Shown here: positions 26,126 through 28,946 of the stretch, piece after piece
Position numbering within the stretch: the stretch's first letter is position 1
Layout: every line of letters starts with the position of its first letter
Assembly (NCBI GenBank): GCA_947460455.1
Contig: CANHKG010000017.1
Coordinates: 1-36,270 of the forward strand
Direction of reading: 5' to 3'
DNA from: Rhodospirillales bacterium
GTDB lineage: Bacteria > Pseudomonadota > Alphaproteobacteria > Acetobacterales > Acetobacteraceae
DNA: 36,270 bases
Notes under the pieces: generated by a model
Told to the model about the DNA's origin: nothing
What the model saw: only the letters and a program-made list of their open reading frames with translations
Database searches by the model: none
Position numbers and translations under genes: made by a program

Positions 26126-26824
26126 ATGTCGACCCAGTATCGAACCGCCCTGATCATCGGCACCGGCCCGGGCCTGTCCTCCTCCCTGGCCCGCCTCTTT
26201 GCCCGGAACGGCCTGTCCGTCGCCGTCGCCGCGCGCAACGTGGATAAACTCGCCGCCCTGGCCGCAGAAACCGGCTGCTCCACCCACGCCTGCGACGCCG
26301 CCGACCCCGCCGCCATGGACCGCCTCTTCACCGAAGTCGAAGCCCGCCACGGCGCGCCCGATGTCGTCGTCTACAACGCCTCCGCCCGCGCCCGCGGCCC
26401 GATCACCGGCCTGGACCCGGAAGCCGTGCGCCGCGCCATGGAAATCTCTGCCTTCGGTGCCTTCCTCGCCGCCCAGCAAGCCGCCCGCCGCATGCTGCCC
26501 GCTGGGCGCGGCGCCATCCTGCTCACCGGCGCCACCGCCGGCGTGAAAGGCTTCGCCAATTCCTCCAGCTTCGCCATGGGCAAGTTCGCCCTGCGCGGCC
26601 TCGCGCAATCCCTCGCCCGCGAACTCGCCCCGCAGGGCGTGCACGTCGCCCACTTCGTCATCGACGGCGGCATCCGCAGCGCCACCCGGCCCGGCACCAA
26701 CGACGCGCCAGACGCGCTGCTGGAGCCGGATGCCATCGCCGAGACCTACTGGCACGTGATGCACCAGCACCGCTCGGCCTGGAGCTGGGAAGTGGAGGTG
26801 CGGCCGTTCGTGGAGAAGTGGTAG
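26126..26824 (+). CDS. Atypical short-chain dehydrogenase/reductase-like protein
   Basis: A 232-residue Rossmann-fold protein. The nucleotide motif is relaxed (IIGTGPGLSSSLARLFARNG), and the NxxG-type strand reads YNASARARG instead of NNAG. At the active site the usual YxxxK reads F149-A-M-G-K153, so the catalytic tyrosine is phenylalanine; the upstream serine-equivalent region is TGATAGVKG. The C-terminal VAHFVIDGGI fits a distinct SDR subgroup that I recall as lacking the tyrosine. NAD(P) binding is likely; classical dehydrogenase activity is doubtful. Confidence 0.85.
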   Translation: MSTQYRTALIIGTGPGLSSSLARLFARNGLSVAVAARNVDKLAALAAETGCSTHACDAADPAAMDRLFTEVEARHGAPDVVVYNASARARGPITGLDPEAVRRAMEISAFGAFLAAQQAARRMLPAGRGAILLTGATAGVKGFANSSSFAMGKFALRGLAQSLARELAPQGVHVAHFVIDGGIRSATRPGTNDAPDALLEPDAIAETYWHVMHQHRSAWSWEVEVRPFVEKW

Positions 26825-26857
26825 CGCGCCCGAGTCTAACAACATTAACGAAAAACC

Positions 26858-26882
26858 GGGAACATATGTTCCCTAAATGTTC
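26858..26882. promoter_or_regulatory. LexA-type operator motif (GTTC-N7-GTTC) overlapping a 16-bp palindrome
   Basis: GGGAACATATGTTCCC (26858-26873) is a perfect palindrome. From its second half, GTTC (26868-26871), seven bases, then GTTC (26879-26882) give the direct-repeat form known for the LexA box of alphaproteobacteria. It lies after the SDR stop and about 200 bases before the tRNA gene. Functional status is not shown by the sequence. Confidence 0.45.
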
Positions 26883-27080
26883 CGTACCCGGTGTTGCCAG
26901 GGTGCATCAGATATCCACATTTATGTCGGGGCTAGCGGGAACGCCCTACATCTAGTGCAATTTGAATTGACGACGGCAAGCCGTTGCGCAGGATGGGGTT
27001 ACGGAGAGGAGACTCTCCGGGAGTGTGGGACGAGGTCTGCTGCAGCGCCAACTGCAACATCCCCCGTCCCAGAGCGGTGT
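26883..27080. other. Spacer between the SDR gene and the tRNA
   Basis: No credible protein gene is seen; open frames here run into the tRNA and have no family likeness. A TTGACG (26967-26972) could be a -35 element. A small hairpin GGAGA-GGAGAC-TCTCC lies near 27003-27018. The region may encode the tRNA leader. Confidence 0.35.
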
Positions 27081-27168
27081 GGCCCAGTGGCGGAATGGTA
27101 TACGCAGCCGATTGTCAATCGGCCGTCCTTCACGGGGATTGCGGGTTCGAATCCCGCCTGGGCCACCA
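27081..27168 (+). tRNA. Class II, leucine-type tRNA with GUC (Asp) anticodon
   Basis: An 88-base cloverleaf. The acceptor GGCCCAG (27081-27087) pairs with CTGGGCC (27158-27164), the discriminator is A, and CCA is encoded. The D arm GCG-GAATGGTATA-CGC carries the GGCGGAAT/GGTA pattern usual in leucine tRNAs. The anticodon stem is GCCGA/TCGGC with the 7-base loop TTGTCAA, so the anticodon is GTC. The 17-base variable arm (27124-27140) has a possible GTCC/GGAT stem. The T arm is GCGGG-TTCGAAT-CCCGC. Body, long variable arm and A73 point to leucine; the anticodon reads aspartate codons. It could be a true mistranslating or regulatory tRNA, or a decayed tRNA-Leu. The intact stems argue against decay. 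Confidence 0.8.
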
Positions 27169-27175
27169 CCTCGGC

Positions 27176-27199
27176 GGAAGTGATTGTCAAGCCACTTCC
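27176..27199 (+). terminator. Possible tRNA terminator hairpin
   Basis: GGAAGTG (27176-27182) pairs with CACTTCC (27193-27199) around a 10-base loop, starting eight bases after the tRNA CCA end. No T-run follows, so it may be a processing or weak termination structure. Confidence 0.35.
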
Positions 27200-27285
27200 C
27201 GAGGGGAATCGATGCACGCATTGGCGCCGTTGGTCAACGGACAAGTGCTCTCACGTGCATCACAACAGGTTTCGGCTGGCTACAC

Positions 27286-28809
27286 CTACATCGTCGCCCC
27301 AATCACCCAAGGCGCGAACTCCGCCGCGCCAAAATCAAACAGCTCGCTCTTGCTCGGCTCGCCAGAAGCCGTGCGCAGGAACAGATCGAAAATCCGCGCC
27401 CCGCATTCGGCGATCGTCTCGTCGCCATCCGTCACGGTGCCGCAGTTGATGTCCATGTCCTCTTCCATCCGCCGGAACATGGCCGAGTTCGTCGCCAGCT
27501 TCAGCGACGGCGCCGGCTTGCAGCCGAACACGCTGCCCCGCCCGGTGGTGAACGCCACCAGGTTCGCCCCACCCGCCACCTGCCCGGTCGCCGCCACCGG
27601 GTCGTAGCCTGGCGTATCCATGAAGATAAACCCCTTGCGCGTCGGCCATTCGGCGTAGCCCACCACCTCCACCAGGTTGGTGCTGCCGGCCTTGGCCATC
27701 GCGCCCATGGACTTCTCCAGGATCGTGGTCAGCCCCCCGGCCTTGTTCCCGGGCGAGGGATTGGAATCCATCTCCGCCCCTTCCCGCGCCGTATAGGCCT
27801 CCCACCAGCGCATCAGCCCCACCAGCTTCTCGCCCACGGCGCGATCCGGCGCGCGCCGCGTCAGCAGATGCTCCGCGCCATAGGTCTCCGGCGTCTCGGA
27901 CAGGATCACGCTGCCGCCATGCCGCACCAGCAAATCGCTCGCCACGCCCAGCGCCGGGTTGGCGGAAACGCCGGAATACCCGTCGCTGCCGCCGCATTGC
28001 AGCGCCACCGTCAGCTCGCTCACCGGGCACGGCACCCGCACCACGTTGTTCGCCTCCGCCAGCACCTCGCGCACGAAGGCGATCGCCGCCTCCACCGTTT
28101 TCCGGCTGCCGCCCATCTCCTGGATGTCCATCCCGCGCAACCGCCCGGCCAGCTTCTGCTCCTGGATCATCCCCGAAAGCTGGTTCACCTCGCAGCCCAG
28201 CCCCAGCATCACCACGTGCGAGAAATTCGGATGCCGCGCATACCCGCCCAAGGTCCGCCGCAGCAGCGCCAGCGGCTCGCCCTGCGCCATGCCGCAGCCC
28301 GTCTTGTGCGTCAGCGCCACCACGCCATCGACATTCGGGAACTCCGCCAGCGGGTTCTCCCCAGTCAGCGGGTTCTTGCGGAACGCCATCGCCACCAGCT
28401 CGGCCACATGCGCCGAACAGTTCACGCTGGTCAGCAGCCCGATATAGTTCCGCGTCGCCACCCGCCCGTCCGCCCGGCGAATGCCCATGAACGTCGCCGG
28501 ACTGGCCACGAAATCGGTCGGCTTCGCGTCCACCCCAAACGCGTAGTCGCGCGAAAAATCCCCCATGCCGAGGTTGTGCACATGCACATGCTGCCCCGGC
28601 GCCACATCCGTCGTGGCAAACCCAATGATCTGCCCATAGCGCCGCACCGCCTCGCCCTGCGCAATCGGCGCCACCGCCACCTTGTGCCCCGCCGGAATCC
28701 GCTGGCTCGCCACAACACCCGGCGCCACCTCGGTGCCCGGCAACAACGTGGCGCGCGCGATCACCACGGTATCGGTGTCATGCAGGCGAATCACAACGGG
28801 GGGGACCAT
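27286..28809 (-). CDS. Altronate/galactarate dehydratase-family (UxaA/GarD) enzyme
   Basis: A 507-residue protein with the two-part UxaA layout. An N-terminal SAF-like domain (residues 1-90, IRLHDTDTVVIARATLLPGT and HNLGMGDFSRDYAFG) is followed by a C-terminal catalytic domain with GVVALTHKTGCGMAQGEP, LGCEVNQLSGMIQ, CGGSDGYSGVSANPALG and MDTPGYDPVAATGQVAGG. Such enzymes dehydrate sugar acids (altronate, galactarate and relatives) to 2-keto-3-deoxy acids using iron. The start at 28809 (MVPPVVIRLHD) was chosen because the upstream frame is the hairpin element. It follows the aldolase gene on the same strand, separated by the hairpin element. The exact sugar acid is not determined. Confidence 0.9.
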   Translation of the reverse strand: MVPPVVIRLHDTDTVVIARATLLPGTEVAPGVVASQRIPAGHKVAVAPIAQGEAVRRYGQIIGFATTDVAPGQHVHVHNLGMGDFSRDYAFGVDAKPTDFVASPATFMGIRRADGRVATRNYIGLLTSVNCSAHVAELVAMAFRKNPLTGENPLAEFPNVDGVVALTHKTGCGMAQGEPLALLRRTLGGYARHPNFSHVVMLGLGCEVNQLSGMIQEQKLAGRLRGMDIQEMGGSRKTVEAAIAFVREVLAEANNVVRVPCPVSELTVALQCGGSDGYSGVSANPALGVASDLLVRHGGSVILSETPETYGAEHLLTRRAPDRAVGEKLVGLMRWWEAYTAREGAEMDSNPSPGNKAGGLTTILEKSMGAMAKAGSTNLVEVVGYAEWPTRKGFIFMDTPGYDPVAATGQVAGGANLVAFTTGRGSVFGCKPAPSLKLATNSAMFRRMEEDMDINCGTVTDGDETIAECGARIFDLFLRTASGEPSKSELFDFGAAEFAPWVIGATM

Positions 28810-28828
28810 CTCAACCTCCAAAGCAAGC

Positions 28829-28946
28829 GGTTCTTTTTTGAAAAAAAGAACCAAAAAACTTTTATTCGTTTGATGCGGGCCTGACCGCATCAAACGAATA
28901 AAGTCTTTTTTGCTTCTTTTTTCTTCAGAAAAAAGAAGACTCTTCC
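28829..28946 (-). terminator. Triple-hairpin element, copy C, between aldolase and dehydratase genes
   Basis: This is the best-formed copy. GGTTCTTTTTT (28829-28839) pairs with AAAAAAGAACC (28842-28852). A perfect 18-bp central stem joins 28861-28878 (TTTATTCGTTTGATGCGG) to 28885-28902. A 12-bp stem CTTCTTTTTTCT (28913-28924) pairs with AGAAAAAAGAAG (28927-28938). It fills the gap after the aldolase stop. In the leftward transcript the central stem is followed by AAAAGTTTTTT, giving a terminator-like U-tract. Confidence 0.75.

Follow-up and report, generated by a model that had tools for sequence, protein, structure and literature searches.

The window analysed here, the complete contig C17 (36,270 bases) of the 5.19 Mb draft genome of a Rhodospirillales bacterium, carries a transfer RNA (tRNA) gene at 27081-27168 on the plus strand in which the body of a leucine tRNA is combined with the aspartate anticodon GTC. 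In the explanation that we favour, and to which we assign a probability of roughly 40%, it is an acquired tRNA of leucine identity that stands behind a copy of a stress-controlled reductase promoter and would be able in principle to put leucine at aspartate codons. Directly established are the cloverleaf, the discriminator base A73, the fit to the leucine type and the normal tRNA-Asp and tRNA-Leu genes of the same genome; so are the lack of the gene at this place in four congeners, the copied promoter and the register of an SOS-type box. We infer transcription from the promoter copy, its induction, leucylation of the RNA and its use on the ribosome.

Structure and amino acid identity of the tRNA

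A search of the whole window with ARAGORN returned this tRNA and no other, under the name tRNA-Asp(gtc), and the Rfam model RF00005 matched it with 61.5 bits (gathering score 29). Pairing is complete in the acceptor stem (7/7), the anticodon stem (5/5) and the T stem (5/5), which gives the 7/5 form. The anticodon loop TTGTCAA lies at 27112-27118 with GTC at 27114-27116, followed by a variable arm of 17 nucleotides (27124-27140), the T arm (27141-27157) with the loop TTCGAAT, A73 at position 27165 and an encoded CCA at 27166-27168. A preliminary description of this DNA had reported an intact class II cloverleaf with GTC, A73, CCA and a leucine-like D arm, and this was confirmed by ARAGORN, Rfam, a table of the stems and a covariance model for leucine tRNAs. 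The folding energy is close to that of shuffled sequences (z -1.9; 12 of 200 shuffles fold equally well), so the evidence for a tRNA is the cloverleaf match and not the energy. It had also been proposed that further closure of the anticodon loop might hide GUC from the ribosome. RNAfold does draw possible U32-A38 and U33-A37 pairs inside the loop, but the tRNA-Gly(GCC) of the same genome has the loop TTGCCAA with identical flanking letters U32, U33, A37 and A38, and the proposal is not supported.

To place the body of the tRNA we used covariance models of our own, built for leucine from 18 tRNAs, for serine from five and for tyrosine from 13 relatives' tRNAs. The window tRNA reached 78.4 bits with the leucine model, 69.3 with the serine model and 53.1 with the tyrosine model, bit scores from different isotype models being only roughly comparable. 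For scale, an ordinary tRNA-Leu (L054) scored 97.5, 57.4 and 60.3 bits in the same order and the class I tRNA-Asp of the genome 37.7, 46.5 and 35.2 bits; five serine tRNAs, which are the training set of the serine model, scored 41.1-56.7 bits as leucine and 98.7-107.5 bits as serine tRNAs. Judged by these models the body is leucine-like, fitting the leucine model better than that for serine or tyrosine.

The identity elements of bacterial tRNAs point the same way. As listed in PMC9976931, leucine identity comprises A73, the tertiary core, A20a and a large variable arm, with no element in the anticodon; in E. coli, A73 is crucial and the anticodon is not. The earlier statement that leucyl-tRNA synthetase (LeuRS) relies on A73 and the tertiary body rather than on the anticodon matches this set. 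A73, A20a, the large variable arm and the GG and TTC letters for the loop contacts are all present in the window tRNA, which departs from a leucine decoder in having GTC instead of an anticodon with A35. Because the body is of leucine type and carries A73, charging by LeuRS is likely; tyrosylation by tyrosyl-tRNA synthetase (TyrRS) is possible. The leucine-type body with A73 given in the preliminary description is supported, also by the best-fitting model; that the tyrosine set fits as well had been overlooked there. An ordinary class I tRNA-Asp(gtc) was sought elsewhere in the genome and found on contig C9, and tRNA-Leu genes are present with the anticodons CAA, TAA, CAG, GAG and TAG. Naming tRNAs by anticodon alone, as was done in the ARAGORN runs, can assign the wrong amino acid.

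The upstream region and the locus

The tRNA lies in a gap of 462 bases (26825-27286) between a short-chain dehydrogenase gene that ends at 26824 and an altronate-dehydratase-like gene (27286-28893, minus strand). Within it, positions 26889-27007 (plus strand) are a copy of the upstream region of the ribonucleoside-diphosphate reductase alpha gene, as found by blastn in the genus and by alignment. The copy is 84-87% identical to the versions in the same genome (contig C9) and in the congeners G001, G003 and G005, and about 81% identical to that in G008; 100 of 119 positions agree with the organism's own reductase upstream region and 103 of 119 with that of G003. The reductase gene was identified as such in the own genome (NCBIfam PRK09102, 652.8 bits, cut-off 620), its counterparts in the congeners by likeness. 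The copy stops short of the reductase start codon, 73 bases before the tRNA.

Motif scan and alignment further revealed an SOS-type (LexA) box, GTTC-N7-GTTC, at 26868-26882 on the plus strand, 198 bp before the tRNA. This motif is the SOS box of Caulobacter as given in PMC6237742. It has a single match in the window (0.62 expected), occupies the same register ahead of the reductase gene of the own genome, G003 and G008, and is also found upstream of the organism's recA, at 184 bp, and of its lexA, at 71 bp and on the opposite strand. By this LexA motif, and by the plasmid matches of a neighbouring gene, the organism is alphaproteobacterial. Of the 32 bases around the box, 15 are identical to the own reductase upstream sequence, 15 to that of G003 and 17 to that of G008; all eight box letters are kept despite these divergent surroundings, in an alignment that permits a slip of one nucleotide. 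Inside the promoter copy, two NrdR-box-like sites on the plus strand, CCACATTTATG (26915-26925) and CTACATCTAGTG (26946-26957), are 31 bp apart, and similar sites, less well kept in G008, occur in the reductase upstream copies. Both are putatively assigned to NrdR on the basis of the NrdR consensus and of the NrdR-box spacing data in PMC12051234. We consider a regulated promoter before the tRNA plausible. As for the regulated mistranslating tRNA of the preliminary description, its control at the promoter gains plausibility from the SOS-type box and the reductase promoter copy, whereas mistranslation itself is a step that we infer.

The 5' leader (27002-27071, plus strand) is predicted to form two hairpins, 27002-27019 and 27026-27071, and past 27007 it is not alignable to the reductase leader. 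On the other side, a trailer hairpin is predicted immediately past the tRNA (27170-27204, plus strand). The loop of this trailer hairpin contains, at 27182-27190, a second copy of GATTGTCAA, a 9-mer from the anticodon arm (27110-27118), which may be chance.

The two flanking genes share one contig in G005, G007, G001 and G003, with gaps of 130, 131, 130 and 743 bases, respectively, and no tRNA; the content of the gap in the window was not found at this place in these four congeners. The 743 bases of G003 (L153, G003:C124:11100-12200) are an unrelated AT-rich stretch at the same intergenic spot, which seems to be insertion-prone. With the 88-base tRNA as query in 60 genomes (the own genome, eight congeners and 51 others), no GTC orthologue was present among the 29 relatives' loci inspected. 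Full-length matches among them were ordinary tRNA-Leu genes and shorter ones other tRNAs. The preliminary description had held that a lack of orthologues would point to a decayed tRNA-Leu. The eight congeners indeed hold no orthologue, yet the gene is undecayed and similar tRNAs occur elsewhere.

Leucine-bodied tRNAs with foreign anticodons

A pattern combining the leucine D arm with GTC was run on 84,980 species genomes and gave 24 matches, 16 of which ARAGORN names Asp(gtc). Fourteen are intact (7/7 acceptor pairs) and all of these have A73. The remainder comprise L075 with 5/7 acceptor pairs and G73, three loci (L090, L095, L097) with sound anticodon and T stems and only three to four acceptor pairs, and six that are not tRNA-like. 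From the titles of the records, we take the intact genes to belong to Planctomycetota, Gemmatimonadota, Chloroflexota, Acidobacteriota, Verrucomicrobiota, Actinomycetota and Pseudomonadota.

A second pattern, the leucine arm with any letter except A at position 35, was applied to 856 genomes in three samples. The own genome and 390 relatives (391 genomes) gave 31 matches in 28 genomes, with seven intact genes in six (the GTC gene of the window and two each with TTA, TGG and TGC); several of the non-intact matches look like intron-split tRNA-Leu(UAA). In 249 Gemmatimonadota, the phylum of G391, 20 matches fell in 18 genomes and 19 intact genes in 17 (nine CGC, five GCG, two GCC, two GTC and one GTG), and in 216 Planctomycetota, the phylum of G393, there were nine matches in eight genomes, seven of them intact in six (two GTC, two TGG and one each of CTC, TGC and CTA). 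Pooled, this makes 33 intact genes in 29 of the 856 genomes, with GTC over-counted because the centres of the samples were picked for carrying it. The foreign anticodons found on leucine bodies in these genomes are those of Asp, Ala, Arg, Gly, Pro, His, Glu and stop. The term intact denotes our own filter, hence intactness in itself is no evidence of selection. Taking all sources together, A73 is present in 44 of 46 distinct intact foreign-anticodon tRNAs, and G73 in L100 (TGG) and L188 (GTT). The latter, from the Brevundimonas phage vB_BpoS-Kabachok (L188:595-678), has a leucine body with the asparagine anticodon GTT, as if its body and discriminator base were shifting towards asparagine identity.

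The 19 intact Gemmatimonadota tRNAs (L159, L161-L178), with the anticodons CGC (Ala), GCG (Arg), GCC (Gly), GTG (His) and GTC (Asp), all have A73. Among them, the acceptor stem GCTGGTG occurs with both CGC and GTC, and GCTCGGG with both GCG and GTG. Because identical acceptor stems carry different anticodons, this suggests anticodon switching on kept tRNA bodies in this phylum. In one Planctomycetota genome (G398), the tRNAs L181 and L187 have near-identical variable arms and the anticodons CTC (Glu) and GTC (Asp). Three leucine bodies (L101, L107, L185) carry the stop anticodons TTA or CTA and are possible natural nonsense suppressors. At L089 (1798-1963) and L093 (158-326), a GTC class II tRNA is immediately followed by a second, odd class I tRNA (Gly GCC and Ile TAT, respectively).

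The idea that the GTC tRNAs are a single mobile family was rejected. Computed without the anticodon loop, body identity was 0.630 among GTC tRNAs (17), 0.623 between these and other foreign-anticodon tRNAs (29) and 0.625 between these and tRNA-Leu (27); the raw ranking, which favours GTC tRNAs, is inflated by the shared anticodon. Body identity shows no grouping by GTC, and independent origins are the simpler reading. An exception is L089 (Chloroflexi), with a body identity of 0.79 to the window tRNA and the same acceptor and T-arm letters. SOS boxes as a class-wide feature were likewise rejected: in a scan of the DNA upstream of 46 tRNAs (17,674 bases in all) with four SOS motifs, L082, L100 and L171 were the only loci with a box besides the window. 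None of the four motifs was found upstream of 27 ordinary tRNA-Leu genes (9,535 bases).

Competing explanations and known systems

In the favoured explanation, an intact tRNA of leucine identity would have been acquired and its anticodon have become GUC, and a ribonucleotide-reductase promoter with its SOS-type box and NrdR-like boxes would have been translocated upstream of it. LexA, perhaps together with NrdR, would keep this promoter repressed, and DNA damage or stress on deoxynucleoside triphosphate supply would free it. After trimming of the leader from the transcript, the LeuRS of the cell would charge the RNA with leucine, and the charged tRNA would compete with the normal tRNA-Asp so that a fraction of GAC and GAU codons would be read as leucine, chiefly under stress. 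We are more doubtful of the bolder claim of a DNA-damage-inducible mistranslation switch, in which the captured SOS-controlled promoter drives a leucine-charged tRNA at aspartate codons as one instance of a scattered, unnamed class of leucine-bodied missense and nonsense tRNAs; this we regard as unlikely. If it were true, a stress-gated tRNA would recode a common charged codon as leucine and link DNA damage to deliberate protein error, and the leucine-bodied tRNAs in 29 of 856 genomes would form a natural series on tolerating or using missense tRNAs.

The favoured explanation is supported by the intact stems with A73 and CCA, the fit to the leucine model, the published identity elements, which favour LeuRS over aspartyl-tRNA synthetase, the promoter copy with its box in register, the occurrence of the same motif at recA and lexA, and the recurrence of such tRNAs in other bacteria. 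Several points weigh against it. The gene was found in a single species of its genus (nine species compared), the pattern of a leucine arm with position 35 not A had no match in any of the eight congeners, and the assembly is a draft in 356 contigs. The margin of the leucine over the serine model, 9.1 bits, is the smallest among 17 GTC tRNAs (9.2 for L077, 12.0-33.4 for the rest), and the serine model is built on just five sequences. A73, G34 and U35 together with the long arm also fit the bacterial tyrosine determinants. A consensus sigma-70 scan of the gap found no promoter with 0.2 expected, a result that carries little weight in an alphaproteobacterium, and the other 45 foreign-anticodon tRNAs do not generally have SOS-type boxes. 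Finally, PMC4300185 reports no detectable mistranslation by the leucine-charged nev-tRNAs of nematodes.

The most serious competitor, although on balance an improbable one, sees in the gene a neutral and silent relic. On this view a related bacterium was the source of a tRNA-Leu copy, which arrived with other DNA, lost its leucine anticodon and is too little expressed to matter. Its presence in one of nine species, the locus empty of a tRNA in four congeners and the failure to find a sigma-70 consensus promoter in the gap all suit a relic, and that the GTC tRNAs form no clade fits sporadic origins. Against it stand the stems, all intact, with A73 and CCA kept, the distance of GTC from any leucine anticodon, at least two changes, and the SOS-type box, kept within otherwise diverged DNA.

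Another explanation places the tRNA on phage-like or transposon DNA, as a decoy or replacement in the face of defence systems that cut tRNAs, with misinsertion as a side effect. It draws on the neighbours of the other foreign-anticodon tRNAs, which were studied by an all-against-all comparison of flanking open reading frames (ORFs). Among the best 60 rows, IS1595 transposases are the one family that recurs at unrelated loci. They lie beside L079, L091, L100, L101 and L109, five of 40 foreign-anticodon loci, and beside none of the 59 loci with ordinary tRNAs (Fisher p 0.009, or 0.027 when a homologous pair and overlapping controls are counted once); both p values are optimistic, as recurrence was itself the ground for choosing the family and the flank lengths were unequal. 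L078, which has an IS1595 match, was left out of the count since its GTC match is no intact tRNA. At L100 and L109, transposase and TGG tRNA stay together in two genera. The other repeats among these 60 rows were one locus included twice, two pairs of homologous loci (L171/L172 and L100/L109) and a methyltransferase-like protein common to L087 and L091. No convincing terminal repeats surround the six loci examined, L091 and L101 having one chance-like pair each. In the flanks of the GTC and two other loci, 30 of 152 ORFs were scanned and yielded ApeA, a Mrr-type nuclease, the phage protein DUF3653, IrrE/helix-turn-helix and a DDE transposase, 18 of the 30 being without a Pfam family. In Microbacterium timonense (L083:4446-6126) an ApeA-type HEPN defence gene comes immediately after a leucine-bodied GTC tRNA, and intact GTC tRNAs also occur on two viral contigs.

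The window itself speaks otherwise. No mobile gene was detected among the ten ORFs scanned (four without a family), and IS1595 as the carrier of this tRNA is not supported, there being no match to it in the window. The 3' end of the tRNA has no second match in the own genome at E 0.001, the gap sequence matched nothing in plasmids and in phages by its tRNA part alone, and near-exact patterns of the tRNA gave no match in viral contigs. In the Gemmatimonadota, moreover, the 35 flanking ORFs belong mostly to chromosomal families (among 25 of 35 families). Altogether, we give an origin on a mobile element a small chance. Elsewhere in the window, a cobalamin riboswitch (512-727; Rfam 73.4 bits) lies upstream of a TonB-dependent receptor gene.

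Hardly any better is the prospect that TyrRS accepts the RNA and brings tyrosine, alone or beside leucine, to aspartate codons. The bacterial tyrosine set in PMC9976931 (A73, G34, U35) is complete here and accompanied by a long arm, but the tRNA has no GUA anticodon and no tyrosine-like body, the 53.1 bits in the tyrosine model comparing with 78.4 in the leucine model and with 117.3 for the organism's own tRNA-Tyr. Moreover, most anticodons of the wider class (CGC, GCG, TGG, TGC, GCC) are without G34-U35, so tyrosine cannot explain the class.

A use outside translation, whether as a regulatory RNA or in donating an amino acid to an enzyme that depends on aminoacyl-tRNA, we think very improbable: a changed anticodon would avoid leucine codons and hairpins are predicted on both sides of the tRNA, but no such enzyme was detected among the ten window ORFs scanned and the GUC anticodon is no bar to use by the ribosome. 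Least credible of all is an alternative tRNA-Asp charged by aspartyl-tRNA synthetase through GUC, for of the bacterial aspartate set (G73, G10, G34, U35, C36, C38; PMC9976931) the tRNA has G34, U35, C36 and G10 but A73 for G73, A38 for C38 and a long variable arm on a body that is not class I, and the same genome has an ordinary tRNA-Asp.

The preliminary description held that a regulated mistranslating or repurposed tRNA would be new. This was too strong, as nev-tRNAs, allo-tRNAs and tRNA-ProX are precedents; a bacterial class of leucine-bodied tRNAs with foreign anticodons is one of which we found no description in the open-licence literature. Like the window tRNA, the nematode nev-tRNAs (Hamashima et al. 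2015, PMC4300185) are tRNAs with a leucine-type variable arm and a foreign anticodon (Gly CCC, Ile UAU), and they are leucylated in vitro. They differ in belonging to a nematode lineage in which they are conserved, whereas the window tRNA is bacterial and not in eight congeners, and an SOS-type promoter is not among the features described in the passages of that paper that were consulted. Allo-tRNAs are bacterial and have many foreign anticodons, with GUC named as one that predominates in the 8/4 form, and in one case an allo-tRNA pseudogene shares sequence with an overlapping gene related to transposons (PMC7609411). According to the same source their identity is that of serine (in some, alanine) and their acceptor and T stems are of the 8/4 or 9/3 kind; the window tRNA, in contrast, has the 7/5 form and A73. 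The tRNA-ProX of Streptomyces and Kitasatospora (PMC11415595) is likewise a natural bacterial tRNA with the elements of one amino acid and the anticodon of another, but has a proline body, the anticodons AGC, AUU and AGU, and comes from another phylum. With ordinary bacterial tRNA-Leu, the window tRNA shares the D arm, the variable arm and A73, the leucine anticodon with A35 being replaced by GUC.
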